From Planosporangium mesophilum (GTDB taxonomy: Bacteria; Actinomycetota; Actinomycetes; Mycobacteriales; Micromonosporaceae), in assembly GCF_016863255.1 (NCBI RefSeq), contig NZ_BOON01000067.1, positions 1 through 41,457 on the forward strand: a DNA stretch of 41,457 nucleotides, given 5' to 3'. The notes beneath the pieces are model-generated. The model was not told where the DNA came from. It did no database searches and worked only from the letters and a program-made list of their open reading frames with translations. Every line of letters starts with the position of its first letter. Position 1 is the first letter of the stretch. The position numbers were made by a program, and so were the translations under genes. Of the stretch, positions 7,653 to 39,486 are shown piece after piece.

Positions 7653-7655
7653 AAG

Positions 7656-8102: not shown

Positions 8103-8112
8103 CCTGGACTCT

Positions 8113-8156
8113 CCGGAGGGAGGGTGTCGTGCAACAACACGACACCCTCCCTCCGG
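8113..8156 (+). terminator. Factor-independent terminator after cheW
   Basis: Perfect 19-bp stem (8113-8131 / 8138-8156) with a 6-nt loop, followed by CGTTTTACGG. It begins 11 nt after the cheW stop and separates cheAW from the next gene. Confidence 0.9.
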
Positions 8157-8229
8157 CGTTTTACGGAGAGTCACCTTGGTGGCCGATCGGGGGACGCAGC
8201 CGGTAGTGCCTCGGTTGCAGACTGGGTGC

Positions 8230-9258
8230 ATGTACAGCCTCGTCAGCGCCCCGGTTCTCGGATTCGACCTGTCCCGCCTGCCTGGCGGATCGGCAACAGC
8301 CGATGTACTTCTCCGTGCGCTCTCGTTTACTGAGAGTGACATCGACGTCATCGCCAACTTCCGGATGGACGACTGGGACCGGCTCGGCCTGTGGCAGGAC
8401 GTCGACGAGGCGGCGCGCCGGCGCCAGACCGTACGCGATCTGTCGGTGGAGCCGGACGACGCGCCCCAGACGCTCGCCCTGCTCGAGCAGGCGCCCATCG
8501 GGACCGTCGACGGGCTGCTGCGATGCGTACGCAACGACCTCCTGGACTGGACCTGGCGACCCGTCGGCCCGGGGACCCCGCCGGGTCCGCTGGCGGCGCG
8601 GCGGCCGGCCGGCACGCCTGATCCGGCCGGCACGTCTGATCCGGCCGGCACGTCTGATCCGGCCGGCACGCCTGATCCGGCCGCGGTGCCGGGTGGGACC
8701 GGTGTGCCGGGCCCGGTCAAGGCGCAGAGCGAGGCCTCCGAATGGGCCACCTCGGTGATCTGCGACGCGGTCGTCGCGGCGTACCTGTCCGACCTGCTCC
8801 CCGCTCCGACCCGGCGCAGCCTCACGGCCGGCTGGCTCGCCGCGCTGCGGTGGCTGCCGGTACGGCCGATGAATCTCGGCCCGCAGCACGACGACATCAC
8901 CGCGTTGCTGGACCGGGTCCGCGCGCTGACCCCGGCCCAGCTCGTACGGCTCGGCGCCGCAGCCGAGGCGACCCGGCGCGCAGCGCCCGACTGGGCTCCG
9001 GCGGTACACGCGGCCTCCTGGGCGGTCTACGTCTCCGAGCGGGTACGGGCTGCCGCCGCCGCCCAGTTGATGCTCGTCCGGGCCGTCGACGACGCGGGGA
9101 TCCCGGTAGCCGAGCGCGCCGGCGGGGCCTGGAACCTCCTCAGCGGCGCCGTGCAGGCCATCGTGGTACAGGACATCCTGGCCGCCGAGACGGTGGAGCG
9201 GCTGGTGGACCCGCTGCTGGCGGCGCTCGGCTCGATCGAGGTGACCGGAACTGAGTGA
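8230..9258 (+). CDS. Unknown protein, 342 aa, with a hexapeptide-repeat linker
   Basis: I do not recognise the family. The start is taken at ATG 8230; no clear ribosome-binding site precedes it and no CTCA-GCCGAT promoter is seen. The product has an N-terminal region with several acidic/aromatic helices (about 20-115), a Pro-Ala-Gly-Thr-Asp repeat linker (about 125-155) and an alanine-rich helical C-terminal region (about 165-340) with VHAASWAVYVSERVRAAAAA. It has no signal peptide or membrane span. It lies between the cheAW and cheBRY operons on the same strand, so a chemotaxis-related role is possible but unproven. High third-position GC supports coding. Confidence 0.65.
   Translation: MYSLVSAPVLGFDLSRLPGGSATADVLLRALSFTESDIDVIANFRMDDWDRLGLWQDVDEAARRRQTVRDLSVEPDDAPQTLALLEQAPIGTVDGLLRCVRNDLLDWTWRPVGPGTPPGPLAARRPAGTPDPAGTSDPAGTSDPAGTPDPAAVPGGTGVPGPVKAQSEASEWATSVICDAVVAAYLSDLLPAPTRRSLTAGWLAALRWLPVRPMNLGPQHDDITALLDRVRALTPAQLVRLGAAAEATRRAAPDWAPAVHAASWAVYVSERVRAAAAAQLMLVRAVDDAGIPVAERAGGAWNLLSGAVQAIVVQDILAAETVERLVDPLLAALGSIEVTGTE
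8605..8683 (+). repeat. 18-bp tandem repeat inside the unknown gene
   Basis: Four 18-bp units at 8605, 8623, 8641 and 8659 (CCGGCCGGCACGYCTGAT) plus a partial fifth. They encode PAGTPD/PAGTSD hexapeptides forming a linker. Confidence 0.9.
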
Positions 9259-9330
9259 TCAATCAGAGCCTGCGACGCGCCTCGCATCGTGAACTCTTGG
9301 TGATCACGGAAATGTCCGGGATGTAGTTTT

Positions 9331-9356
9331 CTCATCCGGTACCCCCTCCCGCCGAT
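9331..9356 (+). promoter_or_regulatory. Flagellar-type promoter of the cheB operon
   Basis: CTCA (9331-9334), 16 nt, GCCGAT (9351-9356). It matches the A. missouriensis flagellar motif and gives a leader of about 48 nt before cheB. Confidence 0.8.
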
Positions 9357-9412
9357 ATGGGCGGGGAACGGATGGCCGGGCGGTGGCTGTCCCTGCGCGG
9401 GGAGGCCGCTTC

Positions 9413-10573
9413 GTGATCTCGGTCCTGGTTGTCGACGACTCGGTCGTCATCCGACGCCTGGTCACAGACGCCCTTGCCGAGGACCCGGAGATCCGGGTCG
9501 TCGGCACGGCTCCCAACGGCCGCGTCGCTCTTGCCAAGATTGAACAGCTCAAACCGGATCTCGTCACGCTCGACATCGAGATGCCGGTTCTGGACGGCCT
9601 CAGTACCCTCCGCGAGTTGCGGCCCCGCTTCCCGCGCCTGCCGGTGATCATGTTCAGTACGCTCACCGCTGCGGGGGCCAGCGCCACGCTGGACGCGCTC
9701 TCGGCCGGCGCCAGCGACTACGTCACCAAGCCGTCCAACGTCGGCAGCTTCGAGGAGTCCAAGCGCAGCGTCCGGGAGCAGATCATCCCCCGGATCCATG
9801 CCCTGTGCGAGCGGGGATCCGCGAGCCGGACGCGGCGCAAGACCGCGCCCCCGGCCGGTGGCTTCGCCTTCCCGCCCGCGCTGCCGGGCCTCGCCGGCGT
9901 ACCGCGCCCCACGACGAAGCCCGGCGCCGGCGCGCCGGCTCCCGCGACCACCCGCCCGCGTACCGACCGGGTCGAGGTCCTCGCCGTCGGCTGCTCGACC
10001 GGTGGGCCGGACGCCCTCGCCAAGGTCCTGCAGGCGCTCCCCGCCAGCCTGCCGGTACCGATCGTGGTGGTGCAGCACATGCCGCCGGTCTTCACCAAGA
10101 TGTTCGCCGAGCGGCTCAACCGCACCTGTGCCCTGGACGTGATCGAGGCGGCGGGGGAGGAGCAGGTGGTCCCCGGCAAGGTCTACATCGCGCCGGGCGA
10201 CTTCCACCTCGAGGTGGTCCGCTCCGGCACGTCCGTATTGACGAAGCTGACCAGCGCGCAGCCCGAGAACTTCTGCCGGCCCGCGGTCGACGTGCTGTTC
10301 CGATCCGTCGCGAAGGTCTACGGCGGCAAGGTTCTCGCGACCGTCCTGACCGGCATGGGCCAGGACGGCCGGCGCGGCGCCGAGGTGCTGCGCGCCGAGG
10401 GCGCCGAGATCGTCGCCCAGGACGAAGAGACGTCCGTGGTGTGGGGGATGCCGGGAGCGGTGACCCACGCCGGACTTGCCGACGCAGTACTTCCCCTACC
10501 CGAGATCGCCAACTATCTCATCTCGCGTACCGCCGGAGGGCGCAGCGCACGGTCCCTGGAGGTGACCCGATGA
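9413..10573 (+). CDS. cheB: Chemotaxis response regulator / protein-glutamate methylesterase CheB
   Basis: 386 residues from GTG 9413, with GGGGAGG 7 nt upstream. The receiver domain (about 1-120) has the DD pair, phospho-acceptor Asp53 (LDIEMP) and a conserved Lys in YVTKPS. An Ala/Pro linker (about 140-185) leads to the CheB methylesterase domain (about 190-375) with the catalytic serine in GCSTGGPDAL, histidine in VVQHMPP and aspartate in TGMGQDG. It demethylates or deamidates chemoreceptor glutamates once phosphorylated by CheA. It overlaps cheR by 4 nt and is first in a six-gene operon behind a flagellar-type promoter. Confidence 0.95.
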   Translation: MISVLVVDDSVVIRRLVTDALAEDPEIRVVGTAPNGRVALAKIEQLKPDLVTLDIEMPVLDGLSTLRELRPRFPRLPVIMFSTLTAAGASATLDALSAGASDYVTKPSNVGSFEESKRSVREQIIPRIHALCERGSASRTRRKTAPPAGGFAFPPALPGLAGVPRPTTKPGAGAPAPATTRPRTDRVEVLAVGCSTGGPDALAKVLQALPASLPVPIVVVQHMPPVFTKMFAERLNRTCALDVIEAAGEEQVVPGKVYIAPGDFHLEVVRSGTSVLTKLTSAQPENFCRPAVDVLFRSVAKVYGGKVLATVLTGMGQDGRRGAEVLRAEGAEIVAQDEETSVVWGMPGAVTHAGLADAVLPLPEIANYLISRTAGGRSARSLEVTR

Positions 10574-11424
10574 CTTTGAGTGCCCAGGAGTTCGCCTATG
10601 TCAGCGACCTGGTGCGGCGCAGTTCGGCCATTGTGCTGGAGAGCGGCAAGGAGTACCTGGTCGAGGCCAGGCTACTGCCGCTGGCCCGCCAGGCAGGCCT
10701 GCCGACCGTGTCCGAGTACGTGATGCGGGCCCAGCACCGGCCGGAGCCGGGCACCCACGAGAAGATCGTGGACGCGCTGACCACGAACGAGACGTCGTGG
10801 TTCCGCGACGGCGAGCCGTTCCAGGCGCTGACCGCCGGCGTGCTGCCCGACCTGATGCCGACGCGGTCGACCAACCGGACCATCCGGATCTGGTCGGCGG
10901 CCTGCTCCAGTGGGCAGGAGCCGTACAGCCTCGCGATGATCCTCGAGGAGAACCTGCCGGCGGGCTGGAGTTACGAGATCCTGGCCACCGACATCTCCCA
11001 GGAGATGCTGAGCCGCGCCGAGGCCGGGCGTTTCACCCAGCTCGAGGTCAACCGCGGGCTTCCGGCGAACATGCTGGTCCGCCACTTCGAGCGGGACGGG
11101 ACCCACTGGCGGGTGGCGGCGAGGCTGCGTAACCACATCACGTTCAAGCGCCTCAACCTGGCGGCCCCGCTGCCGCCGATGCCGCAGTTCGACATCGTCT
11201 TCCTGCGCAACGTGTTGATCTACTTCGACGTCGAGACCAAGCGTCAGGTGCTGGCTCGTACCAGTGGCGTGATGCGCCCGGACGGCTGGCTCTTCCTCGG
11301 TTCGGCGGAGACGACCATCGGTATCGATGACCGGTTCGAGCGCATAGCCGCCGGCCGCAGCTCCGCATACCGCCTGCGTGGCACCAACATCACGTCGCCG
11401 GCCGGCGCAATGGGAAAGGGGTGA
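10570..11424 (+). CDS. cheR: Chemotaxis protein methyltransferase CheR
   Basis: 284 residues. A helical N-terminal domain (about 1-75) precedes the SAM-dependent methyltransferase domain, with TTNETSWFRD near residue 76, WSAACSSGQEPYSLAM as the SAM motif I region near 110, and FLRNVLIYFD near 215. Length and motif order are normal for CheR. It methylates receptor glutamates using SAM, opposing CheB. ATGA overlap with cheB implies coupling; cheY follows after 6 nt. Confidence 0.95.
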   Translation: MTLSAQEFAYVSDLVRRSSAIVLESGKEYLVEARLLPLARQAGLPTVSEYVMRAQHRPEPGTHEKIVDALTTNETSWFRDGEPFQALTAGVLPDLMPTRSTNRTIRIWSAACSSGQEPYSLAMILEENLPAGWSYEILATDISQEMLSRAEAGRFTQLEVNRGLPANMLVRHFERDGTHWRVAARLRNHITFKRLNLAAPLPPMPQFDIVFLRNVLIYFDVETKRQVLARTSGVMRPDGWLFLGSAETTIGIDDRFERIAAGRSSAYRLRGTNITSPAGAMGKG

Positions 11425-11430
11425 TCACCA

Positions 11431-11817
11431 ATGATTGCCTTGGTGATCGATGATTCGCGAGCGATGCGGCTGATCCTCACCCGGATCACCGGCCAGCTCG
11501 GGTTCGAGGTGTGGCAGGCAGGCAACGGGCGAGAGGCCCTGGACCTGCTGGAGGCCAGCGACGTCGTCCCGGCGGTGGCGCTCGTGGACTGGAACATGCC
11601 GGAGATGAACGGGCTGGAGTTCGTAACTGCGGCTCGATCAAATCCGAAATATCGGACAATGACCATGATGATGGTGACGACCGAGGGCGAGCAGAGCCAG
11701 ATCGTACGAGCCCTGGCGGCCGGCGCCCACGAGTACGTAATCAAACCTTTTACCCCGGACGCCATCGAGGAGAAGTTGGCGCTGCTGGGCGTGTCAACGA
11801 ACGGAGCCACCGCATGA
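11431..11817 (+). CDS. cheY: CheY-type single-domain response regulator (first copy)
   Basis: 128 residues: a complete receiver with DD at 7-8, phospho-acceptor Asp53 (LVDWNMPEMNG), the Thr in MMVTTEG and Lys in VIKPFTP. There is no output domain, so it acts by binding a target such as the flagellar switch. It overlaps the cheX gene by 4 nt (ATGA), so regulator and presumed phosphatase are produced together. Which of the two CheY copies binds the motor cannot be told from sequence. Confidence 0.92.
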   Translation: MIALVIDDSRAMRLILTRITGQLGFEVWQAGNGREALDLLEASDVVPAVALVDWNMPEMNGLEFVTAARSNPKYRTMTMMMVTTEGEQSQIVRALAAGAHEYVIKPFTPDAIEEKLALLGVSTNGATA

Positions 11818-12281
11818 CCGGCAATGCACCCACGGACGAAGACCTGTTCGCGATCGCGGAGCAGGTGTGGTCGTCGTACCTGGACCTCGAGGGCACGAGC
11901 CCGCTGATCCAGATGCCTCGCACCAAGCCTTCGTCCGACGTTTCGGCCTCGGTGTCGGTCACCGGCGCATGGCGCGGGCACGTCGTGGTGAGCTGCACCA
12001 TGCCGGCCGCGCGCAGCGCCGCCGCCGCCCTGCTCGGCATCGAGCTGGACGAGGCCACCGAGGACGACGTCACGGACGCGCTCGGTGAGCTGGCCAACAT
12101 CATCGGGGGCAACGTCAAGAGCCTCATGCCGGAGCCGTCGGCGCTCTCGCTGCCGGTCGTCCTGGTCAACGGCAGCCCCGGCTGGCCGTCGGCCTCGGAG
12201 GTGTGCCAGCTCAACGGCGAGTGGCTGGGTGAGTCGGTCGCCGTCCAGGTCCTCGAGAGCACCAACGAGAAGGGCGCGTGA
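11814..12281 (+). CDS. cheX: CheX-like CheY-phosphate phosphatase
   Basis: 155 residues. The central helix DALGELANIIGGNVK carries the CheC/CheX/FliY phosphatase signature E..N (Glu92, Asn95), followed by the beta strands of the CheC-like fold. CheX dephosphorylates CheY-P in systems lacking CheZ, and no CheZ is seen here. A single phosphatase helix fits CheX rather than two-helix CheC. It is coupled by 4-nt overlaps to the cheY genes on both sides. Confidence 0.82.
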   Translation: MTGNAPTDEDLFAIAEQVWSSYLDLEGTSPLIQMPRTKPSSDVSASVSVTGAWRGHVVVSCTMPAARSAAAALLGIELDEATEDDVTDALGELANIIGGNVKSLMPEPSALSLPVVLVNGSPGWPSASEVCQLNGEWLGESVAVQVLESTNEKGA

Positions 12282-12652
12282 CGTTACCGATGAAGATCCT
12301 CATCGCGGATGACAGCCGGGTGATGCGGCAGATCGTTACCCGTACCCTCCGGCAGGCCGGCTTCGACGGCCACGACCTCGTCGAGGCGGCGGACGGCCAG
12401 CAGGCCTACGACGCCGTCACCAACGAGAAGCCGGACCTCGTCCTGTCGGACTGGAACATGCCCGAGATGACCGGCATCGAGGTGCTACGCATGCTGCGCG
12501 CCAACGGCGTCCAGGTGCCCTTCGGGTTCGTGACCTCGGAAGGCACCCCGGAGATGCGGGGCCAGGCCGAGGATGCCGGTGCCCTCTTCCTCATCACCAA
12601 ACCGTTCACCGCCGAGGCGTTTCGTGACGCTTTGGACCCGATCCTAGGATAA
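12278..12652 (+). CDS. cheY: CheY-type single-domain response regulator (second copy)
   Basis: 124 residues from GTG 12278 (GTGA overlap with cheX); ATG 12290 is an alternative start. The receiver is complete: DD at 11-12, Asp58 in LSDWNMPEMTG, Thr/Ser in FVTSEG and Lys in ITKPFT. It is about as close to canonical CheY as the first copy. If GTG 12278 is used, codon 3 is a rare TTA. Having two CheYs in one operon suggests one motor regulator and one phosphate sink or second target (inference). Confidence 0.92.
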   Translation: MTLPMKILIADDSRVMRQIVTRTLRQAGFDGHDLVEAADGQQAYDAVTNEKPDLVLSDWNMPEMTGIEVLRMLRANGVQVPFGFVTSEGTPEMRGQAEDAGALFLITKPFTAEAFRDALDPILG

Positions 12653-13835: not shown

Positions 13836-14501
13836 TCAGTAGTCGTCGTCGGCGGCCGCGCGGCGGGCCAGCACCTGCTGGCGCATCACGTACCGGCGCA
13901 CCAGCTCCGCCTGGCGCTCAGTCAGCTCCAGGGTCACGATCATGTCGACGGTCTTCCCGATGCGGTCGTCGATGGTCCGCAGCACAGCGCCGTCGGCGTC
14001 GAGCATGTCGTCGCCCAGCTGCACGACCGTGGTCACCGGTACGCCGTCGTCGAGCATCACCCGGTCGGGGGCGTCGGGCTTGGCGCCGTTGATCCGGAAC
14101 CGTACGCCGCCCTCGCTGATGTCGCTGGCGGCGCCGGAGATCACGATGTCGTCGCGCTCCTTCGGGCGTACCCGTACCGCCTCACCACCGCCCGCGCGGA
14201 CGAACCGGCGGCGCTGGTTGAGTACGGGCTCCGACTCGACGGTCAGGGACCAGCACCGCATCGGTACGCCCTCGACCCGTGCGGTCGACGTCAGCCTGGC
14301 GTCGACGACGTACCGCCCACGCGGCCCGGCGACCCAGCTCAGCTTCAGGACGGCGCCCAGGTCGGGGATCTCGACCGTCTCGTTGAACGGTGCGGCGACG
14401 ACCACGGTCGCGCCGTTGATCATCTCCACCCGTGACTCGAGCTCGGTCCCCTCGTGAACAAGGCTGACCGGCGAGCTGACCTCGGGCATCGGCTCGCTCA
14501 T
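13836..14501 (-). CDS. YcgR-like PilZ-domain c-di-GMP receptor
   Basis: 221 residues from ATG 14501 (4-nt overlap with the upstream FlhF-like gene). An N-terminal YcgR-N-like beta domain (about 15-90) is followed by a PilZ domain with both c-di-GMP signatures: RRRFVR (RxxxR) near residue 96 and DISEGG (D/NxSxxG) near 127. YcgR-type proteins slow or bias flagellar rotation, or interact with MotA, when c-di-GMP is high. The gene shares an operon with flhA and lies close to an EAL-HDOD protein, so c-di-GMP control of zoospore motility is likely. Confidence 0.85.
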   Translation of the reverse strand: MSEPMPEVSSPVSLVHEGTELESRVEMINGATVVVAAPFNETVEIPDLGAVLKLSWVAGPRGRYVVDARLTSTARVEGVPMRCWSLTVESEPVLNQRRRFVRAGGGEAVRVRPKERDDIVISGAASDISEGGVRFRINGAKPDAPDRVMLDDGVPVTTVVQLGDDMLDADGAVLRTIDDRIGKTVDMIVTLELTERQAELVRRYVMRQQVLARRAAADDDY

Positions 14502-15943
14502 TCCACCACCTCTTCCAACCGCCGACACAGCAGGTCAGCCCAGACATGCGGGGTTGCGACGCGACCGTCGAGCAGCGCGACGGGCACCCCCAGTTGCAGG
14601 ACGGTAGCCGGGTCGCTCGTTGCCGCGCAGGCATACGCCGCGATAGCATCCACATGGCCGATATCGGCTAGTCGGCGCGCGCTATCCGCAGTCTTGCCTG
14701 TGGCGTTGACCACACCCCACACCGCGGCGGCGTCACAGCTCTCCACGATCGAGCGGGCCCATTCGGTACCGATGCCGCCGGCCGGCATGTCGACCACGAC
14801 GACGATCGGCGCGTCCGCGACGCGGCGCAGCTTGGCGATCCGCTTGACCGCGTGCTCCGGACCGGTCAGTCGCCGGCTCGGGTGGATACCGGTACCCGCG
14901 CAGCTGGCGGCGGCGAGCACGACGCGGGCCGGGGCCAGGCGCAGCGACTCGCTGACCGTACGGGCCACCGCCAGCGCGTCGCGCAGCTCACCGGCGATCA
15001 CGAGGACCTCACCGGCGCGTGACGGCGGCTTCGGCGCCTCGGGCAGGAGCTTGAGGACCTTGACGATCGCCCGGTACGAGTCGGCGCCGGTCACCCGTTC
15101 GCCCAGCTGCTCCGGCAGGCCCAGGTGGGACAGCACGGTCTTCAGCGGAGCGTCGGCGGGCAGCCGGACAGGCTGGTAGCGCGGGATCAGCGGGGCGTCC
15201 GGGGTGTCGGCCTCCTGGCCGGCGACGCTCGCGGTCGGAGCCACCGCAGCTTGAGCGGCGGCGTGGCCGGCGGCCGGCGGTGCCGGTGCGGCCTTCGGCG
15301 GCGTCGGTGTTGCGGCCGGGGGAGCGACGACCACGGGCGGCCGCTCCGCGGCCGTCGGCGTGGTGGGCGCGGGCATCACGGTGGTACCACCCGTCACGAC
15401 CGGGACCCTCCAGCCCGGCGCCCCGAAGCCGGACAGCACCTCGGCGAATGCGTTCGGGTTGGCGCTCGGCTCGGTCGTGGTGCCGGTCGGGCCGGCTGTG
15501 GTCGTGGTGCCGGTCGGGCCGGCTGTGGCCGTGGTGCCGGCCGGGCCGGCTGTGGCCGTGGTGCCGGCCGAGCCGGCTGTGGTCGTGGTGCCGGCCGAGC
15601 CGGCTGTGGCGGCGTCCGGGGTGCCCGACTCGTCCGCGCCGAGGTGCGGCAGCAGTTGGCGCTCCTGCGCCTCGACGAGGGCGATCAGCGCGTCGGCCGG
15701 GCTGCCGGCGGCACCGGCGGCGGCAGCCGGGGCGGCCTTGACCGCCGGAGCGGCCGTGCCGGTCTCCGCGGAGTCGGCCACCTCGATGGTCAGCTCGTAC
15801 CGTTCGCGGCTGAACAGGCCGGTCAGACCGGTCGGGCGAACCCGGTCGGCGGCGACGATGCGCGCCGCCGGACCGTGCTCGGCGCGGACCTGTGCCAGCA
15901 GTTCCTGGATGTCGCCACCCTCAAGCAGCAATCGAGTAGGCAC
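14498..15943 (-). CDS. FlhF-like protein lacking the P-loop
   Basis: 481 residues from GTG 15943, overlapping the end of flhA by 23 nt. Residues 1-55 (DIQELLAQVRAEHGPAARIV, then GLTGLFSRERYELTIEV) match the N-terminal B domain of the SRP-type GTPase FlhF. A long Ala/Thr/Pro linker (about 60-245) includes five 9-residue repeats. The C-terminal third (about 255-480) keeps the strand/helix pattern of the FlhF N-G domains, but where GxTGxGKTT should be it reads VLVIAGELRDALAVA, and the DTAGR-like motif is VVDMPAGG. GTP binding is therefore unlikely. It sits at the flhA-flhF position seen in other bacteria. No FlhG/MinD-like partner is present. Confidence 0.7.
   Translation of the reverse strand: MPTRLLLEGGDIQELLAQVRAEHGPAARIVAADRVRPTGLTGLFSRERYELTIEVADSAETGTAAPAVKAAPAAAAGAAGSPADALIALVEAQERQLLPHLGADESGTPDAATAGSAGTTTTAGSAGTTATAGPAGTTATAGPTGTTTTAGPTGTTTEPSANPNAFAEVLSGFGAPGWRVPVVTGGTTVMPAPTTPTAAERPPVVVAPPAATPTPPKAAPAPPAAGHAAAQAAVAPTASVAGQEADTPDAPLIPRYQPVRLPADAPLKTVLSHLGLPEQLGERVTGADSYRAIVKVLKLLPEAPKPPSRAGEVLVIAGELRDALAVARTVSESLRLAPARVVLAAASCAGTGIHPSRRLTGPEHAVKRIAKLRRVADAPIVVVVDMPAGGIGTEWARSIVESCDAAAVWGVVNATGKTADSARRLADIGHVDAIAAYACAATSDPATVLQLGVPVALLDGRVATPHVWADLLCRRLEEVVE
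15474..15608 (-). repeat. 27-bp tandem repeat inside the FlhF-like gene
   Basis: Five contiguous 27-bp units (15474, 15501, 15528, 15555, 15582), differing at a few bases, encoding Thr/Ala/Gly/Pro nonapeptides such as AGPTGTTTT on the minus strand. Confidence 0.9.
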
Positions 15944-17960
15944 CGTTCACCACTCCCACGGTTTCGACGCGCAGCGCGCTCTGGGCGATCTCGGAGTACG
16001 ACAGGACGGGCAGCCGGGGTACGGCCATCTGGAGCAGGCGCCGCAGCGCCAGGCGCAGTTGGGGCGAGCAGACGACCACCGGGCTGAGGCCCCGCTGCTC
16101 GGCGGTCTCGCACAGTTGGGTCAGCTCCGCCACCATGATCTCCGCCCGGCCGGTGTCGACCAGCAGTTGCAGGCCGGCCTCGGTGGGGCGCAGCGACTCG
16201 AGCAGCGACTGCTCCAGGCGCGGGTCCAGGGTGACGACGGTGAGCGCGCCGTCGGTGGCGTACCGGGCGGAGATGGCCGGGCCGAGGGCGGCGCGGGCCG
16301 CCTCCAGCAGCGAGTCGTGGTCGGTGGCGCTCTTCGCGGTCAGCGAGAGGGACTCGAAGATGCGTACCAGGTCGCGGACCGGTACGTCCTCGTCCAGCAG
16401 CCCCTGCAGCACCCGCTGTACCTGGCCGAGGCTGAGCAGGGCCGGGGTCAGCTCCTCGACGACGACCGGGTGGGTCTGCTTGACGACCTCGGTGAGCGCC
16501 CGCACGTCCTCGCGGCCGAGCAGGCGGCTGGCGTTGGCCCGTACCACCTCGGCCAGGTGCGTGATGATGACCGAGGCCCGGTCCACCACGGTCGCGCCGG
16601 ACAGGTCGGCCTGGTGGCGCAGTTCGGCCGGTACCCACTTGCCGGCAAGGCCGAAGACCGGCTCGACGCCGGCGCGGCCGGGCAGGAAGTCCAGGTTCTC
16701 GCCGATCGCGAGGACGGTGCCGGGTGGCGCCTGGCCCTGGGCGACGTCCACCCCGCTGATGCGGATGGCGTACGTCGACAGCGGCAGGTCCAGGTCGTCG
16801 CGGGTACGCACCGGCGGCATCACGATGCCCAGGTCGAGGGCGACCTTGCGGCGCAGTGACCGTACCCGGTCCAGGAGGTCGCCGCCGGCACCGTCGACGA
16901 GGTCGACGAGGTCGGGGGAGAGCGCCAGCTCGAGCGGGTCGACGCGCATCTCGCCCAGCAGCGACTCGGTCGGGTCGGCCGGCGCCGGGGCGTTCGCGTC
17001 CGCCTCGGCCGCCTCCCCGGCGGGCGAGGAGGGCATCCGCTGCGCGACGAACAGCGCGGCGCCGCCGATCAGCAGGAACGGGAGCTTGGGCAGGCCCGGG
17101 ATGAGGCACAGCACCAGGGCGGCACCGCCGGCGATCCGTAACGCGACCCGGTGCTGGCCGAGCTGCTTGATCACGCTCGAGCCCATGTCGCCCTCGGTGG
17201 CCGAGCGGGTCACGATGAGGCCGGTCGCCACCGACAGCAGCAGCGCCGGGATCTGCGAGACGAGGCCGTCGCCGACGCTCAGCAGGCTGTACTTCTGGAT
17301 GGCCTCGACGGGAGACATGCCCTTCTGGACCATGCCGACGACGAAGCCGCCGATGAGGTTGATCAGGGTAATGACGATGGCGGCGATCGCGTCGCCCTTG
17401 ACGAACTTGGAGGCGCCGTCCATCGCGCCGTAGAAGTCCGCCTCGGCGGCCACCTCGGCGCGGCGCCTGCGCGCCTCCACCTCGTCCATCAGGCCCGCGT
17501 TGAGGTCGGCGTCGATCGCCATCTGCTTACCCGGCATGGCGTCGAGGGTGAAGCGGGCGCCGACCTCGGCGACCCGCTCCGCGCCCTTCGTGATCACGAG
17601 GAACTGGATCACGATCAGGATGGTGAAGATGACCAGACCGATCACGAGCTGGCCGCCGACCACGAAGTGGCCGAACGCGTCGATGACGTTGCCTGCGAAG
17701 CCGTCCATGAGGACCAGGCGGGTGGCGCTGATGTTGAGCGCGAGCCGGAACAGCGTCATGACCAGCAGCAGCGAGGGGAACGTGGAGAAGTCCAGCGGAC
17801 GCTTCACGTACATGCTGGTCAGCACGACCACCAGCGCGCCGACGATGTTCAGGGCGATGAACAGGTCGATCAGGAAGGTGGGCAGCGGCACGACCATCAT
17901 CACGATGATCAGTACGACACCCAGGGGGACGGCGAACTGGCTCAACCGGCGACCGGACAC
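15921..17960 (-). CDS. flhA: Flagellar export gate protein FlhA
   Basis: 679 residues from GTG 17960 (AGAGGG upstream). The N-terminal half has about eight membrane helices and the FHIPEP-family signatures: LFRLALNISATRLVL near residue 70, and a cytoplasmic loop with VAEVGARFTLDAMPGKQMAIDADLNAG near 135-160. The C-terminal half is the cytoplasmic nonamer-ring domain that receives substrates and chaperones. Length is normal. It is the first gene of a four-gene minus operon starting at a flagellar-type promoter (18035-18060). Confidence 0.97.
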   Translation of the reverse strand: MSGRRLSQFAVPLGVVLIIVMMVVPLPTFLIDLFIALNIVGALVVVLTSMYVKRPLDFSTFPSLLLVMTLFRLALNISATRLVLMDGFAGNVIDAFGHFVVGGQLVIGLVIFTILIVIQFLVITKGAERVAEVGARFTLDAMPGKQMAIDADLNAGLMDEVEARRRRAEVAAEADFYGAMDGASKFVKGDAIAAIVITLINLIGGFVVGMVQKGMSPVEAIQKYSLLSVGDGLVSQIPALLLSVATGLIVTRSATEGDMGSSVIKQLGQHRVALRIAGGAALVLCLIPGLPKLPFLLIGGAALFVAQRMPSSPAGEAAEADANAPAPADPTESLLGEMRVDPLELALSPDLVDLVDGAGGDLLDRVRSLRRKVALDLGIVMPPVRTRDDLDLPLSTYAIRISGVDVAQGQAPPGTVLAIGENLDFLPGRAGVEPVFGLAGKWVPAELRHQADLSGATVVDRASVIITHLAEVVRANASRLLGREDVRALTEVVKQTHPVVVEELTPALLSLGQVQRVLQGLLDEDVPVRDLVRIFESLSLTAKSATDHDSLLEAARAALGPAISARYATDGALTVVTLDPRLEQSLLESLRPTEAGLQLLVDTGRAEIMVAELTQLCETAEQRGLSPVVVCSPQLRLALRRLLQMAVPRLPVLSYSEIAQSALRVETVGVVNGAYSIAA

Positions 17961-18104: not shown

Positions 18105-19385
18105 GTGTCAACGACATCGGAACCGCAGCCCGGACAGATCGTTCACGTCGGTCGTCAGCCGCTGTACAACCCCGCTGGCGACGTCGTCGGGTACGAGCTG
18201 CTCTTCCGCGGCGCCGGTACCGAGGTGGCGGCGTCGCGGCGCAACGCGTACGCCACCAGTCAGGTGATCGTGAACGCCTTCACCGAGTTCGGCCTGCCCG
18301 AACTGGTCGGCGACCACATGTGTTTCATCAACCTGACGCGCGAGTTCATCGTCGGTGAGTTGGCGCTGCCGTTCGAGCCCGGCCGGGTCGTCCTGGAGAT
18401 CCTCGAGTCGGTCGAGATGGACGACGAGGTGATCGCGGGGGTCTCCCGCCTGGTGGAGCAGGGGTACCCGATCGCGCTGGACGACTTCGTCTTCGGGCTC
18501 GGCCACGAGCGGCTGCTGGGCCTCGCCTCGTACGTGAAGATCGACGTGCTCGACGGCGACGAGGATCGCATCACCTCGGTCGTGCGGGCCTGCCGGAAGT
18601 ACCCGGACATCAAGCTGGTCGCCGAGAAGGTGGAGACCACCGAGCACATCATGCTGGCCCATGAGCTCGGGTTCGAGCTGCTCCAGGGGTACGCGCTGAG
18701 CCGCACCCAGGTGGTGTCGATCGCCACCCTGGCGCCGTCGCGGCTGCGCCGGCTGGAACTGCTGGGCGCGCTGACCGGGCCCGAGGCCGACGTCGACCAC
18801 ATCGTGTCGATCGTGACCAGCGACCCGGCGTTGACGTTCCGGGTACTGCGGGCGACGAACGCCGCCTCGGGCGGCCTGAACCGTCGCGTCTCGTCGGTGC
18901 ACCAGGCGGTCGTCATGCTCGGCGGCCAGCGAATCCGGGAGTGGGTGACGCTGATGCTGGTCTCGGACATCGCCGAGGCGAGCGACGCGCACCTGTCGAC
19001 CGCGATGGCCCGGGCGCGGCTGTGCCAGACGATCGCCAGCCGGCTCGACGCCTCCGCCGACTCGGCGTTCATCGCCGGCCTGCTCTGGGGCATCTCCGAC
19101 GTGCTCGGCGTCCCGGTGGTCGACCTGGTCGGCCGGTTACCGCTGGCCGACGACGTGACCGAGGCGCTGGTCAACGGGTCCGGCGGCCTCGGCGAGGTGC
19201 TGTCGCTGGTGCGGGCGTACGAGGGGGCGGACGCCACGGCGCTCAGCCAGCTCAAGGTGTCCCCGGCGGACCTGGCGAAGGCGTACCTGAGCGCGGTGGG
19301 CTGGTCGGTACGGACCGTGCAGGGCGTGCTCGGTCCGCCCGCGTCGCGCCCGGGCGCTTCCGACAACGTTCCGACGCCCGCCTGA
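18105..19385 (+). CDS. EAL-HDOD protein (YuxH/PdeH-type c-di-GMP phosphodiesterase)
   Basis: 426 residues. The N-terminal EAL-type domain (about 10-210) reads ELL instead of EAL, as in the YuxH family, but keeps the metal/catalytic positions: Glu31, Asn76 (FINLT), Glu98, Asp126-Asp127 (LDDF), Lys145 (VKID), Glu in AEKVET and Gln in LQGYAL. The HDOD domain (about 215-410) holds the usual helices, including QAVVMLGGQRIREWV. Family members hydrolyse c-di-GMP or act as signalling adaptors; the retained residues allow activity. GTG 18105 has no ribosome-binding site and lies 9 nt after the -10 hexamer. Codon 345 is a rare TTA. It is monocistronic, ending at the 19429 hairpin. Confidence 0.85.
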   Translation: MSTTSEPQPGQIVHVGRQPLYNPAGDVVGYELLFRGAGTEVAASRRNAYATSQVIVNAFTEFGLPELVGDHMCFINLTREFIVGELALPFEPGRVVLEILESVEMDDEVIAGVSRLVEQGYPIALDDFVFGLGHERLLGLASYVKIDVLDGDEDRITSVVRACRKYPDIKLVAEKVETTEHIMLAHELGFELLQGYALSRTQVVSIATLAPSRLRRLELLGALTGPEADVDHIVSIVTSDPALTFRVLRATNAASGGLNRRVSSVHQAVVMLGGQRIREWVTLMLVSDIAEASDAHLSTAMARARLCQTIASRLDASADSAFIAGLLWGISDVLGVPVVDLVGRLPLADDVTEALVNGSGGLGEVLSLVRAYEGADATALSQLKVSPADLAKAYLSAVGWSVRTVQGVLGPPASRPGASDNVPTPA

Positions 19386-19428
19386 CGCGGAGCCGGTACG
19401 AGGCGTCGCAGCGCGGCACGGAGTGGCG

Positions 19429-19459
19429 AAATGGGCAAAACAGCTCGTTTTGCCCATTT
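19429..19459 (+). terminator. AT-rich hairpin: terminator and/or operator
   Basis: Perfect 12-bp arms (19429-19440 AAATGGGCAAAA and 19448-19459) around a 7-nt loop, 43 nt after the EAL-HDOD stop and followed by ATATCTAGAAT. The base composition stands out from the surrounding GC-rich DNA. It can terminate the EAL-HDOD transcript. It also covers the -35 region of the next operon, so a repressor operator is equally possible. Confidence 0.6.
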
Positions 19460-19464
19460 ATATC

Positions 19465-19470
19465 TAGAAT
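19465..19470 (+). promoter_or_regulatory. -10 element of the sugar-nucleotide operon
   Basis: TAGAAT (19465-19470) is a good housekeeping-type -10. The GTG of the acetyltransferase follows after 7 nt, so transcription would begin at or beside it (leaderless). No convincing -35 is seen, because the inverted repeat occupies that region. No CTCA-GCCGAT motif is present. Confidence 0.5.
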
Positions 19471-19477
19471 AAGCAGC

Positions 19478-20074
19478 GTGACGGCGACAATTTCCCCCTC
19501 CTCCGACGTCGACGAGAGCGTCGAACTCGGAGACGGCACCCGGGTCTGGCACCTGGCACAGGTCCGGGAAGGCGCTCGGCTCGGGTCCGACTGCGTGGTC
19601 GGCCGGGGCGCCTACATCGGACCGGGCGTCGTCATCGGCGACAACGTGAAGATTCAGAACCACGCCCTCGTGTACGAGCCGGCCCGGCTGGCGTCGGGGG
19701 TGTTCGTGGGTCCGGCCGCGGTGCTGACCAACGACCTCCACCCGCGCGCGGTGAACCCGGACGGCAGGCTCAAGGGCGCCGACGACTGGACGTCGGTGGG
19801 AGTCACCGTCGAGTACGGCGCCTCGCTGGGCGCCCGCTCGGTCTGTGTGGCCCCGGTCCGGATCGGCCGCTGGGCCATGGTCGCGGCCGGGGCGGTGGTG
19901 ACCGCCGACGTACCCGACTTCGCGCTGGTCGCCGGCGTTCCCGCGCGCCAGCTGGGCTGGGTGGGGGAGGCGGGCGTCCGGCTGGAGCGCCTCGCCACCG
20001 GGCTTTGGCGGTGTCCCCGGACCGGGGCCACCTACACCGAGGAAGACGGCACGCTACGGGGAGATGCGCAATGA
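19478..20074 (+). CDS. Left-handed beta-helix acetyltransferase (WlbB/WbpD-like)
   Basis: 198 residues from GTG 19478; no ribosome-binding site, start chosen from the adjacent TAGAAT element. Hexapeptide-repeat (LbH) sequence runs from about 25 to 165, with GAYIGPGVVIGDNVKI, TNDLHPRA and MVAAGAVVTADVPD. It resembles the N-acetyltransferases that acetylate the 3-amino group of UDP-2-acetamido-3-amino-2,3-dideoxy-glucuronate. A C-terminal extension CPRTGATYTEEDG is typical of this group. Specificity is inferred from the two following genes. It overlaps the aminotransferase by 4 nt. Confidence 0.8.
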   Translation: MTATISPSSDVDESVELGDGTRVWHLAQVREGARLGSDCVVGRGAYIGPGVVIGDNVKIQNHALVYEPARLASGVFVGPAAVLTNDLHPRAVNPDGRLKGADDWTSVGVTVEYGASLGARSVCVAPVRIGRWAMVAAGAVVTADVPDFALVAGVPARQLGWVGEAGVRLERLATGLWRCPRTGATYTEEDGTLRGDAQ

Positions 20075-21162
20075 CGGCTGTTACTCCGATGATCCCGGCC
20101 GCGCGGCCCATGATCGGCGCCGAGGAGCGCGCCGCGGTGGACCGCGTGATGGCGACCGGGATGCTCGCGCAGGGGCCGGAGGTGGCCGCGTTCGAGACCG
20201 AGTTCTCCGCCGTGGTCGGTGACCGGAGCTGCGTTGCGGTCAACTCGGGTACCAGCGCCCTGCTGCTCGGCCTGCTCGCCGCCGGCATCGGCCCGGGCGA
20301 CGAGGTGATCGTGCCGTCGTTCACGTTCGCCGCCACCGCGAACGCCGTCGTGCTCGCAGGGGCGGAGCCGGTCTTCGTGGACATCGAGCCGGCGCACTTG
20401 TGCATCGACCCCGACGCGGTCCTCGCCGCGATCACGCCCCGCACGGCGGCGGTCATGCCGGTGCACCTGTACGGGCACCCGGCCGCGATGGACCGGCTGG
20501 CGGCGATCGCCGACCGGCACGGGTTGGCCGTGATCGAGGACGCGGCGCAGGCCCACCTGGCGACCTGGGCCGGCCGGCCGGTCGGCACGTTCGGCCAAGT
20601 CGCCGCGTTCAGCTTCTACCCGACGAAGAACATGACCAGCGGCGAGGGCGGCATGGTCGTCTGCGCCGACGAGGACACCGCGCGGCGGGTACGGCTGCTG
20701 CGTAACCAGGGCATGGAGCGCCGGTACCACAACGAGGTCGTCGGCTACAACGTGCGCATGACGGACCTGCACGCCGCCATCGGCCGGGTGCAGTTGCGGC
20801 GGCTGGCCGGCTGGACCGCGACGCGGCAACGCAACGCGGGCCACCTCTCGGCGGCGCTCGCCGAGGTGCCGGGCGTCGGCGTACCCGCGGTGGCGGACCG
20901 GGCGGAGCACGTCTGGCACCAGTACACGATCCGGGTGTCCGACCGGGACACCGTCGCGGACGGGCTGGCCGCCGCCGGCGTCGGCAGCGGGGTGTACTAC
21001 CCGACCCCGGTCCACGAGCTTCCCTCGTACGGGCTGTCGATCGACCTGCCCGAGACCCGGCGGGCCTGCGCCGAGGTGCTGTCCCTGCCGGTGCACCCGG
21101 CGCTGTCCGAAGGCGACCTCGCACACATCGGCGCCGCCGTGGCGAAGGTGATGGGTTCGTGA
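20071..21162 (+). CDS. DegT/DnrJ/EryC1/StrS sugar aminotransferase (WlbC/WbpE-like)
   Basis: 363 residues from ATG 20071. PLP-dependent sugar aminotransferase with SGTSALLLGL (phosphate-binding region), VIEDAAQAH (ring-contact Asp) and catalytic Lys186 in YPTKNMTSGEGG. The family transaminates 3- or 4-keto nucleotide sugars using glutamate. Between a dehydrogenase and an acetyltransferase the order fits the 3-keto step of the UDP-diacetamido-uronate pathway. Overlaps of 4 nt on both sides show one operon. Confidence 0.88.
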   Translation: MTAVTPMIPAARPMIGAEERAAVDRVMATGMLAQGPEVAAFETEFSAVVGDRSCVAVNSGTSALLLGLLAAGIGPGDEVIVPSFTFAATANAVVLAGAEPVFVDIEPAHLCIDPDAVLAAITPRTAAVMPVHLYGHPAAMDRLAAIADRHGLAVIEDAAQAHLATWAGRPVGTFGQVAAFSFYPTKNMTSGEGGMVVCADEDTARRVRLLRNQGMERRYHNEVVGYNVRMTDLHAAIGRVQLRRLAGWTATRQRNAGHLSAALAEVPGVGVPAVADRAEHVWHQYTIRVSDRDTVADGLAAAGVGSGVYYPTPVHELPSYGLSIDLPETRRACAEVLSLPVHPALSEGDLAHIGAAVAKVMGS

Positions 21163-36205: not shown

Positions 36206-36864
36206 AGTCCCAGTACCTCCCGTACCCGGGCCAACGCGGGCGCGATCCGGGCGTCGATCGTGGTGGCGTCGCACTCGGCGACCGCGTCCCCCGACTGGAG
36301 GGTGGGATCGGCGACGAGCGTGACCGTGCGTCCGTCCATCTGAACGGACCCGAACTGCCCTCCGGTCACCGTCGCGTGATCGCTCGGGTGCAGCCGTACC
36401 GTGATCGGCCGCCCGGCCGGGGCGAGCGCGAGGGCCCGCGCGACGGCGTCGCGGCCGGGGTCGGTCGCCATCGCCAGTTCGCGTCCGAGGATCGCCTCGG
36501 CGAGGGTGAACGCCGCGCCGACGATGAGGTCCTCGAACTCGGCGGCGGCCGGCACCATCTGCCGCTCCAGGCCGGCTGCGGCCCGGGTGACGGCGGCGAT
36601 CGCCTGCTCGACCCGGAGGGCCTGCATCTCGGCCTGCTCGCGTACCTGTGCCGCGGTCCGTTCCCGGCCGACCCGGGCGGCGACCTCTGCCTCCCGGCGG
36701 CCCTGCGCCCAGCCGGTGGCGTACCCGGAGGCCTGCGCCTCGGCGCGCAGCCGGTCGGCCACCTCGTTCGGCAGGGTGGGCTGCTCGCGCAGGTCGACGT
36801 CGAAGCGGGCGGCAGTCACCGCCCGCTCGCCGCGGACGACCGTACTAGGCCACGAATTCGTCAT
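36202..36864 (-). CDS. fliH: Flagellar export ATPase regulator FliH
   Basis: 220 residues from ATG 36864 (GGGG 5 nt upstream; a GTG 6 nt earlier is possible). A charged, helical middle with GYATGWAQGRREAEVAARVGRER (G-rich helix repeats typical of FliH) leads to a C-terminal domain with AILGRELAMATDPGRDAVARALAL, GRPITVRLHPSDHATV and DATTIDARI. It binds FliI and links it to the C-ring. The 3' end of fliG overlaps its start. Confidence 0.9.
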   Translation of the reverse strand: MTNSWPSTVVRGERAVTAARFDVDLREQPTLPNEVADRLRAEAQASGYATGWAQGRREAEVAARVGRERTAAQVREQAEMQALRVEQAIAAVTRAAAGLERQMVPAAAEFEDLIVGAAFTLAEAILGRELAMATDPGRDAVARALALAPAGRPITVRLHPSDHATVTGGQFGSVQMDGRTVTLVADPTLQSGDAVAECDATTIDARIAPALARVREVLGL

Positions 36865-37861
36865 CGTCACCCCGCCTGATCATGATCTGGCCCGACTCCT
36901 CGAGCGTGCGGATGACCTGGACGATCTTCGCTTGGGACTCCTCGACCTGCCGCAGCCGTACCGCGCCGAGCATCTCGATCTCGTCGAGCAGGTTTTCGGC
37001 GGCGCGCTCGGACAGGTTGCGGGTGACCTTGTCGCGGACGTCCTCGCGGACACCCTTGAGCGCGGTCGCCAGGTCGTTCGTCTCGACCTGCCGCAGGACG
37101 AGCTGGACCGCGCGGTCGTCGAGGCTGGTGATGTCCTCGAACATGAACATCTTCGAGCGGACCTCGTCGGCCAGCTCGGGGTCCCGGGCTGCGAGGCCCT
37201 CCAGGATCAGCCGCTCGGTGGCGCGGTCGGCGCGGTTGATGATGTCGACCAGCGGCTGCAGGCCGCCGACGGCGGACAGGTCGCTGGGCTGGAGCACCGA
37301 GGAGAGCTTGCGCTCCAGGGTCGCCTCGACCTGCCGGATGATGTCCGGCGAGGTCCGGTCCATGACCGCGATGCGGTGGGCGACGTCGGCCTGCAGCTCG
37401 CCGGCGAGGCCGGACAGGATCTGCGAGGCCATCACGGCCGGCATGTGGGCCAGGACCAGCGCGATGGTCTGCGGGTGCTCCTCCTGTACGAACGACAGCA
37501 CCTGGCGCGGGTCGGCCTTCTGGAGGAAGCCGAACGGCATCTCCACGAACGCCGCGGAGAGTCGGTTGACCACCGCCTCGGCCGCCTCCCGGCCGAGCGA
37601 CGCCTCCAGCAGCTCCTTGGCGTAGTCCATACCGCCCTGGTGGGCGTACTTGTTGGCCACGGCCATGTTGTGGAACTCGTCCATCACGGACCCGGCGGTC
37701 GCGGCGTCGATCGTCCCCAGCCGCATGATCTCGGCGGTGATCTCCTCGACCTCGGCCTCGCGCATCTGCGCCAGGACCTTCGCCGACTGCTCCTTGCCCA
37801 TCTGGACGAGCATGATCGCGGCCTTGCGGACCCCGGAGATCTGAGCGGTCTCGGTTGTCAT
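36845..37861 (-). CDS. fliG: Flagellar switch/rotor protein FliG
   Basis: 338 residues. N-terminal GVRKAAIMLVQMGKEQSAKVLAQM, middle domain with EEHPQTIALVLAHM near residue 127, and the C-terminal torque domain (about 230-325) with MFMFEDITSLDDRAVQLVLRQVE, carrying the charged helix that contacts MotA. Starts 2 nt after the fliF stop. Normal length. Confidence 0.97.
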   Translation of the reverse strand: MTTETAQISGVRKAAIMLVQMGKEQSAKVLAQMREAEVEEITAEIMRLGTIDAATAGSVMDEFHNMAVANKYAHQGGMDYAKELLEASLGREAAEAVVNRLSAAFVEMPFGFLQKADPRQVLSFVQEEHPQTIALVLAHMPAVMASQILSGLAGELQADVAHRIAVMDRTSPDIIRQVEATLERKLSSVLQPSDLSAVGGLQPLVDIINRADRATERLILEGLAARDPELADEVRSKMFMFEDITSLDDRAVQLVLRQVETNDLATALKGVREDVRDKVTRNLSERAAENLLDEIEMLGAVRLRQVEESQAKIVQVIRTLEESGQIMIRRGDDDEFVA

Positions 37862-37863
37862 CG

Positions 37864-39486
37864 TCAGCTCCTCCGGTCCGCGAGCCAGCCGCGCAGCACC
37901 TGGGCGACCTCGTCAGGCTGCTGCTCGACCAGGCTGCTGATCTCCCGCTGTCGCAGCTCGCGCTCGGCGGCGGCTTCCTCGTCGTTGGGGCCGCCGCCCG
38001 GTGTGATCGCCAGCCGCGCGGTCTCGCCGCCCTCGGCCTCCAGCGCCGCGCGGGCGTTGGCCAGCTCGAGCTGCAGCCGCTCCTCGTTGGCCGAGGCGAT
38101 CTCGGCCTGCAGGCGGCGGAGCCGCTTGTTGCGACGCCGGGACCGCAGCCAGGCGAAGAACATCAGGAGGAGGATCGCGGCGACGATCCCGCCGGTCTTG
38201 GCCAGCGAGTACAGCCGGTCCTGCTCCTCGGCCTTCTTGGCGTCGGCCAGCGCCTTGGCGTTGGCGTCGGACGCGGACTTGTCGAACGGGACCGTGCTCA
38301 GCGCGATCGTGTCACCGCGGGCCGCGTCCAGCCCGACCGCCGACGACACCAACTGCTGGAGCTGGGCCTCGTTCGCGCCCTTGGCGGTGGCGCTGTCGAG
38401 CATGACCGCCACCGACAGCTTCCGTACCGAACCGGGCGCGGACTTGCGGGTCTCGGTGACCATGCCGACCGCGTTGTTGCGGGTCTCCGACTGCGCGTTG
38501 TACCCGTTGTTGGCGCCGCCGGTCCCGCCGGGCACCTGGATGTTGTCCGGGCCGAGGACGCCGGCGCCCATCGTGCCGTTGCCGGTGTACGTCTCGGTCT
38601 TCTTGGTCTCGGCCAGCGGCGGCGTGTTCGGGTCGGCGACGTACTTCTGGGTCTTGGTCTCGGTCTGGTCGAAGTCGAGGTCGGCGGTGACCTGCACGGC
38701 CGCGTGGCCGGGACCCACCACCTGGTCGAGCATCTGCTGCAGCGAGCTGCCCATGCGCTGCTCGAACGCCTGGGTCTGCTGGGTGCGGGCGTCCGCCGCA
38801 CCGCTGGCGCCGGCGGCGTCGTCGGTGGAGAGCACCTTGCCGTCCGCGCCGACCAGGGTCACCTTGGACGGCTCCAGGCCGGGCACGCTCGACGAGACGA
38901 GGTGGACGATCGCCTGCGCCTGCGGCGACGACAGCTTCCCGCTCGGCCCGGTCTGGACGAGGACCGAGGCGGTCGGCTTCTGCTGGTTGTCGGCGAACAC
39001 GTCCTTGGTCGGGATGGCCAGGTGGACGGCGGCCGACTGGACCCCGGCGATCGACTTGATCGTCTTGTTCAGCTCGCCCTCGAGCGCCCGTTGGTAGCCG
39101 ACCTGCTGCATGAAGTCGCTGGTCATGACGCCCTGCTTGTCGAGCAGTGCGTACCCGGTGTCGGCCTGCGCCGGCAGTCCGGCGCCACTGAGCTTGATCC
39201 GCTGGGCGTACACCTGGTCCTGCGGCACCGTGATCGTCTGGCCGCCGTTGGTGAGCTGGTAGGGCACCCCGTCGGCGTTCAGCTTGTCGACGATCGCGCT
39301 GGCGTCGGCCGGTGCGAGGTTGTTGAACAGCGGAGCGTACGTGGGCTGCGCGGCCCAGGTGGAGAAGAAGTAACCACCGACGGCGAGCGCGACGACCGCG
39401 AAGATGGAGATCGCCCGCTGGCCGGGGGTGAACGACTGGAAGGTCTCGACGACGCGACGGAGTACGGCGGTAACGCGATCACGCAT
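37864..39486 (-). CDS. fliF: Flagellar MS-ring protein FliF
   Basis: 540 residues. Membrane helix 1 (about 25-45), secretin-like ring-building motifs with SDFMQQVGYQRALEGELNKTI near 125-145 and VHLAIPT, the DLDFDQTETK region near 268, and membrane helix 2 (about 437-455) followed by a charged cytoplasmic tail whose end (REISSLVEQQPDEVAQVLRGWL) binds FliG. Overlaps the fliE stop (TGATG). Confidence 0.97.
   Translation of the reverse strand: MRDRVTAVLRRVVETFQSFTPGQRAISIFAVVALAVGGYFFSTWAAQPTYAPLFNNLAPADASAIVDKLNADGVPYQLTNGGQTITVPQDQVYAQRIKLSGAGLPAQADTGYALLDKQGVMTSDFMQQVGYQRALEGELNKTIKSIAGVQSAAVHLAIPTKDVFADNQQKPTASVLVQTGPSGKLSSPQAQAIVHLVSSSVPGLEPSKVTLVGADGKVLSTDDAAGASGAADARTQQTQAFEQRMGSSLQQMLDQVVGPGHAAVQVTADLDFDQTETKTQKYVADPNTPPLAETKKTETYTGNGTMGAGVLGPDNIQVPGGTGGANNGYNAQSETRNNAVGMVTETRKSAPGSVRKLSVAVMLDSATAKGANEAQLQQLVSSAVGLDAARGDTIALSTVPFDKSASDANAKALADAKKAEEQDRLYSLAKTGGIVAAILLLMFFAWLRSRRRNKRLRRLQAEIASANEERLQLELANARAALEAEGGETARLAITPGGGPNDEEAAAERELRQREISSLVEQQPDEVAQVLRGWLADRRS

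Follow-up and report, generated by a model that had tools for sequence, protein, structure and literature searches.

A FlhF homologue without nucleotide-binding motifs encoded after flhA in Planosporangium mesophilum

FlhF is a GTP-dependent, dimerising GTPase of the signal recognition particle (SRP) type, and the purpose of its GTP is still debated. FtsY and Ffh are active GTPases of protein targeting, and pseudo-GTPases keep a GTPase fold without the nucleotide-binding motifs, often in a scaffold role. Work with Shewanella putrefaciens revealed that the B domain of FlhF binds FliG, that its NG domain binds HubP regardless of nucleotide, and that FliG held by FlhF is unable to bind FliM/FliN (PMC11236974). 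In Pseudomonas aeruginosa, the B and N domains are enough for building flagella but insufficient for placing them (PMC12713375), and in Bacillus subtilis FlhF and FlhG pattern flagella and are dispensable for motility, rod mutants phenocopying the flhF patterning defects (PMC12153297). For actinobacteria, a 2023 survey that ran BLASTP and PSI-BLAST with queries from Salmonella Typhimurium or B. subtilis says of the classes devoid of FlgF/FlgG that they 'also lack ... FlhF' (PMC10746217). The string 'actino' is absent from the main text of a 2025 FlhF/FlhG review (PMC12826062), and no P-loop-free FlhF in print was found by title and abstract start in the open-licence literature, subscription papers lying outside that search. 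Here we describe a 41,457-nucleotide stretch of P. mesophilum (assembly GCF_016863255.1, contig NZ_BOON01000067.1, positions 1 to 41,457; the window from here on), in which the minus-strand gene after flhA encodes what is almost certainly a FlhF homologue devoid of nucleotide motifs. We favour, as the probable reading, that the inherited FlhF of this lineage has turned into a pseudo-GTPase that acts as a nucleotide-independent tether on FliG.

An earlier annotation of the same sequence, the original prediction, had correctly located the open reading frame directly after flhA, although the strand was absent from it. The frame opens with GTG and runs from 15943 to 14498; the gene and the parts of it that bear on nucleotide binding, as placed by profile alignment, are the following.

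14498..15943, minus strand: P-loop-free FlhF homologue, 481 residues (TIGR03499; 64 homologues at E <= 0.001)
14972..14995, minus strand: former P-loop (G1), AGELRDAL, residues 317-324
14774..14797, minus strand: former G3 (DTAGR), VVDMPAGG, residues 383-390
14609..14635, minus strand: former G4 (TKLDE) region, YACAATSDP, residues 437-445
14684..14719, minus strand: kept motif W-x-VV(D/N)AT-x-K-x-x-D, residues 409-420, which aligns with the canonical FlhF xxttK.sD stretch

These positions come from aligning the profile of 58 P-loop-free C-termini to that of 32 P-loop FlhFs, a comparison that reached a probability of 92.7 and an E-value of 4.3e-7 (hhalign E-values being single-comparison values), in comparison with at most a probability of 0.2 and E 0.37 for 30 column-shuffled controls; with the 9 Micromonosporaceae-like sequences only, the probability drops to 56.7. 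Of the 58 proteins, 44 come from fetched loci without GxxxxGK[ST] and 13 from the 64 homologues, the remaining one being the window protein. In the resulting register the P-loop is occupied by IAGELRDAL, DTAGR by VVDMPAG and TKLDE by the stretch preceding TSDP; a joint MAFFT alignment breaks the P-loop apart and was set aside for the register at that place. The replacement of the P-loop by AGELRDAL and of DTAGR by VVDMPAGG, as originally pointed out, is thus found at those very places and, beyond it, TKLD (G4) is lost too. GxxxxGK[ST] occurs in 0/58 P-loop-free proteins, 44 of which were picked for its absence, and only 3/58 have a lysine anywhere in the ten columns aligned to the P-loop. What the P-loop-free C-termini keep is the WxVVDATxKxxD motif, VG where the first strand ends and, C-terminally, DGRxAT...W; among 46 aligned proteins P454 is invariant, and W409, K417, D420 and W468 are found in 90% or more. 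WxVVDATxKxxD itself is among the best-conserved parts of the former G domain. As a whole, the G region diverges faster than the B domain in 55 of 57 comparisons.

The architecture of the protein was delineated from a structural model and from family profiles, with model confidence expressed as the predicted local distance difference test (pLDDT).

15773..15943, minus strand: B domain, residues 1-57, strand-helix-strand-strand (model; the family profile matches 9en1 over 53 residues)
15209..15766, minus strand: linker, residues 60-245, pLDDT mostly under 60 except for helix 82-97
15653..15700, minus strand: linker helix, residues 82-97, pLDDT about 70-78
15473..15609, minus strand: in-frame 27-bp tandem repeat, 5.1 copies, 96% match, coding for a Thr/Ala/Gly/Pro-rich, collagen-like linker stretch
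15428..15457, minus strand: linker helix with an FAxVL motif, residues 163-172, pLDDT about 55
15053..15145, minus strand: short N-domain-like helices, residues 267-297 (model)
14504..15013, minus strand: G-domain-like alpha/beta fold, residues 311-480 (model and structure comparison)

The NCBIfam FlhF model TIGR03499 covers residues 9-83 of the window protein (1.4e-6, 28.5 bits, below its cut-off of 174.15). No Pfam model passes its cut-off in this protein or in 10 relatives scanned, the sole match in the former being a sub-threshold collagen on the linker. The profile of the B domains of the P-loop-free family has 9en1 as its best PDB match (E 0.0087), an entry that we equate with the FliG-interaction domain described in PMC11236974; FliG binding is predicted. 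The linker is probably disordered as judged from the model; its FAx[VML]L motif, which occurs in 28/58 P-loop-free proteins versus 0/32 P-loop FlhFs (residues 61-200), may be a short binding motif. As for the C-terminus, phmmer with the whole protein against the PDB gave no convincing relative (best E 1.3), and the C-terminal profile met SRP54 chains at E 0.08, ranked below unrelated chains. The domain is therefore beyond the reach of ordinary sequence search and is placed by its predicted fold and by the profile-profile comparison. Its model, with a pLDDT of 94, shows the SRP-GTPase NG fold, on whose presence the original prediction had staked itself beforehand; the top VIA structural match is the FlhF of S. 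putrefaciens, tied with other SRP GTPases, and ppGpp-bound Ffh and FtsY are also among the matches. The poor reach of TIGR03499 and of the PDB searches would suit an unrelated flagellar protein that resembles FlhF at its N-terminus only. Such an origin is hardly conceivable in view of the position after flhA, the register-true alignment with its shuffled controls, the SRP-GTPase fold and the existence of sister lineages with a P-loop FlhF whose other motifs are altered.

The host genome, with a listed completeness of 98.55%, was also searched for the missing partners. A PF00448 search gave two high-scoring proteins on contig C2 (239.6 and 237.2 bits), which reading of their sequences identifies as FtsY and Ffh, and one match at 24.4 bits. 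An intact FlhF elsewhere, which could have undone the original prediction, was thus not found. The absence of FlhG that it had claimed is likewise borne out: none lies in the window, and the best FlhG-like protein of the genome reaches 50.8 bits, with a match beginning at query residue 26, past the DQAxxLR helix, far under the 241.9-271.5 bits obtained in 12 other actinobacterial genomes.

The distribution of the gene was followed through FlhA (PF00771), found in 63/396 genomes from the phylum and 51/394 from the class, which make 110 different genomes including the host. The stretch after flhA was taken for 106 loci, namely all 50 others of the host class and 56 of 59 from other classes (defined by kinship labels plus one named Acidimicrobiia bin), three being left out with flhA at the contig end. 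Within the host class, no locus has a P-loop FlhF, 29 have a P-loop-free one (the canonical profile picks up 28, the P-loop-free profile L088), two are cut by the contig end with the B domain visible (L125, L127), and in 19 no FlhF-like gene was found. The 56 loci of other classes include 30 P-loop FlhFs (29 adjoining flhA, that of L144 slightly further) and 18 P-loop-free ones (16 by the canonical profile; L181, with a short frame, and L183 by the P-loop-free profile); L192 is cut with the B domain and no P-loop in the visible part, L139 and L193 are cut before the P-loop, and five are unassigned (L148, L159, L166, L171, L191). P-loop-free FlhFs follow flhA in Dactylosporangium, Pseudosporangium, Cellulomonas, Arthrobacter (L015, L020), Naasia, Cryobacterium suzukii, L009 and L028 according to the canonical profile, and in Modestobacter, Blastococcus, Klenkia, Geodermatophilus, Occultella, Arthrobacter L026 and the Acidimicrobiia bin according to the P-loop-free one. 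The statement of the survey (PMC10746217) is hence amended, as a divergent FlhF is present in the host class and in the Acidimicrobiia bin.

Loci without the gene are defined as having none beside flhA, and the rest of the genome may differ. No such frame follows flhA in Nocardioides, Microbacterium sp. MYb62 or Aeromicrobium, where the P-loop-free profiles are also blank. The P-loop-free B-domain and C-terminus profiles match 0/19 gene-less loci and 44/44 P-loop-free loci, the same loci from which they were built. Canonical-profile matches in two of the 19 (L109, L112) and in the named locus L012 were rejected as hidden FlhFs, all three looking like ABC (ATP-binding cassette) transporters by sequence. 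TIGR03499 gave nothing above cut-off in the whole genomes of six gene-less members (G433, G085, G448, G316, G629, G731), a search that a P-loop-free copy would also fail. These 19 loci, together with short copies of 249 (L090), 277 (L091) and 287 residues (L129) and the faster divergence of the G region, would fit a decaying remnant, in which the B domain alone matters, as an assembly factor or a chaperone for FliG, and the NG-like part would be a passive fold in the course of being lost. The confidently modelled fold and the residues kept in 90% or more of the 46 aligned proteins speak against it, and conservation of the C-terminus across many families makes a passive remnant unlikely in comparison with a retained pseudo-GTPase.

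In a FlhA tree of 59 rows (L009, L013, L022, L027, L031, L050 and L058 left out), the 34 rows that are P-loop-free or lack the gene all fall to the same side of a 100/100 branch. Among its labels, G292 is called intact though its contig ends before the P-loop, G047, G295, L044 and L072 are unassigned, and the P-loop-free label of G279, G118 and L024 was first given by eye; a later check confirmed their B domains and showed no P-loop. Of the 80 genomes searched (of 110), 12 have a TIGR03499 match above cut-off, and none of the 24 from the host class does. FlhG, at the 241.9-271.5 bits mentioned above, occurs in exactly 12 of 40 genomes searched, the same 12 with a canonical FlhF above cut-off, and scores no higher than 55.5 bits in the remaining 28, of which 15 have a P-loop FlhF, 12 a P-loop-free one and one a gene cut before the P-loop. 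Within the fetched stretches, it accompanies 13/29 P-loop genes, 0/44 P-loop-free genes and 0/19 gene-less loci. Since, in these 40 genomes, FlhG is found only where FlhF is canonical, it was apparently lost before the P-loop, and several P-loop FlhFs without FlhG have an altered G3 or G4 (DTPG or DTPP in G3). Seven loci (L154, L156, L157, L160, L163, L168, L190) combine a P-loop FlhF, a genome without FlhG and DTPP in place of DTAGR, and likely represent an intermediate stage. Two or more one-piece matches to FlgG (TIGR02488) were counted, among the rows listed, in 25/27 P-loop genomes and 0/33 P-loop-free genomes, a hand tally in which one of the 25 includes a contig-cut match and the two misses, G148 and G351, are without any match; the pattern agrees with the report of later classes lacking FlgF/FlgG (PMC10746217). 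The simplest reading is a loss of FlhG, then motif erosion, then loss of the P-loop, and finally loss of the gene in some families. We propose only tentatively that a nucleotide-free tether FlhF is spread through many Actinobacteria, the switch having been lost stepwise (FlhG first, then the GTPase motifs with FlgF/FlgG, then the gene in some families). The distribution itself ties the loss of GTPase motifs to that of FlhG and the distal rod.

The genes around the flhF-like frame, including the one whose product the B domain is expected to bind, are the following.

15921..17960, minus strand: flhA, upstream of the flhF-like gene (TIGR01398, 784.7 bits)
13836..14501, minus strand: PilZ-domain protein (PF07238, 2.6e-6)
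36845..37861, minus strand: fliG, its product with N, M and C domains (expected B-domain partner)
37864..39486, minus strand: fliF

flhA overlaps the flhF-like frame by 23 nt, and the TGA of the latter shares ATGA (14501-14498) with the ATG of the PilZ gene, overlaps that make serial translation of the three genes probable. The minus-strand cluster further encodes FliE, FliH, a FliI-type ATPase, a transglycosylase/NlpC protein, FliK, FlgE, MotA, MotB, FliM, FliN, FliP, FliR and FlhB. The transglycosylase (SLT) and NlpC/P60 domains of one product inside the cluster (33511-34473, minus strand) perhaps open the peptidoglycan for the rod. Between flhA and flhB, on the plus strand (18105-22151), lie genes for an EAL-HDOD protein, a hexapeptide-repeat transferase, a DegT-type aminotransferase and a GFO/IDH oxidoreductase, the last three resembling a sugar-modification set, possibly for flagellin glycosylation. 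Chemotaxis genes (a CheA-like protein with CheW domains, CheR, CheX and a response regulator) also occupy the plus strand at 5331-12652.

The PilZ neighbour had been taken as a sign of repurposing, an idea abandoned here because a PilZ gene is also found in the fetched stretch of 17/29 P-loop FlhFs, as it is in 18/44 P-loop-free ones and 0/19 gene-less loci, some stretches being cut short. The same overlapping gene, the conserved G318 at the end of the first strand, the K417/D420 motif and the ppGpp-bound structural matches could be read as a remodelled site that still binds a nucleotide or small ligand, cyclic di-GMP or ppGpp for example, and remains a switch. We hold this to be quite unlikely, given that 55/58 proteins lack any lysine in the ten P-loop columns, that GxxxxGK[ST], G3 and G4 are gone, and that PilZ neighbours stand likewise beside canonical FlhF. 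The repurposed scaffold of the original prediction is a plausible role, but its assignment to flagellar placement on zoospores is not borne out. The host FlhA groups with Micromonosporaceae, its nearest sequence being that of Dactylosporangium fulvum (79% over 653 columns), and Dactylosporangium and Pseudosporangium, the nearest named relatives, belong to a family that includes zoospore formers. The P-loop-free gene is also present in Cellulomonas, Arthrobacter, Cryobacterium, Naasia and other classes; those four genera are not known for zoospores. A zoospore-specific placement factor was accordingly rejected on this distribution, which largely contradicts it, and is to be regarded as very improbable.

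Altogether, sequence and model show that B domain, NG fold and operon position are kept, that G1, G3 and G4 are lost and that FlhG is not found; a B domain and gene position that persist without the switch are in keeping with a constant tether between FliG and an anchor. In such a mechanism, the B domain would bind FliG and thereby capture FliF-FliG during basal-body nucleation, and the nucleotide-free NG-like domain would offer a constant anchor or dimerisation surface in place of a GTP-timed hold-and-release. Handover of FliG to FliM/FliN would then proceed by competition or another signal, and the protein would promote or bias the assembly site without counting flagella as the FlhF/FlhG pair does, counting being lost or achieved otherwise. 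Flagella in this lineage would thus probably be built without a GTP switch. Several points weigh against this proposal. The window B domain as a single query misses 9en1, which is reached by profiles alone, and modestly without canonical FlhFs. GTPase-motif mutants of a marine Vibrio FlhF lose polar localisation and flagellar formation (PMC6092412), and FlhF of P. aeruginosa was seen to bind FliG in the presence of a GTP analogue, GDP disturbing the interaction (PMC12713375), so a nucleotide-free FlhF need not bind FliG. Moreover, the 19/50 loci of the host class without an FlhF-like gene beside flhA suggest that flagella can probably be built without FlhF, and we found neither a binding experiment on any P-loop-free member nor a test of a tether in an actinobacterium.

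A group to one side of a single tree branch that keeps a presumed FliG-binding end and the fold, and has no nucleotide site, makes the question of what GTP does directly testable; if a constant tether on FliG is confirmed, nature would have performed a separation-of-function experiment, in which FliG capture takes place without GTP and the GTP cycle serves counting and release. In comparison with FlhF (8r9r, 9en1, 2px0), the window protein is alike in its succession of B domain, linker and NG fold, in a gene directly after flhA and in FliG encoded in the same cluster, but it lacks P-loop, DTAGR and TKLD, scores below the family cut-off, has a short N-like part and comes without a detected FlhG. 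The actinobacterial FlhF families f21, f22, f28, f42, f46, f56 and f59 share the absence of FlhG (15 visible-P-loop genomes searched) and several have an altered G3, differing by a P-loop that is still present, so that they look like an intermediate stage. The host Ffh/FtsY pair matches at E 0.02 as a two-sequence profile, weaker than FlhF at E 4.3e-7. Finally, as in pseudo-GTPases in general, the fold is kept and the nucleotide motifs are lost.
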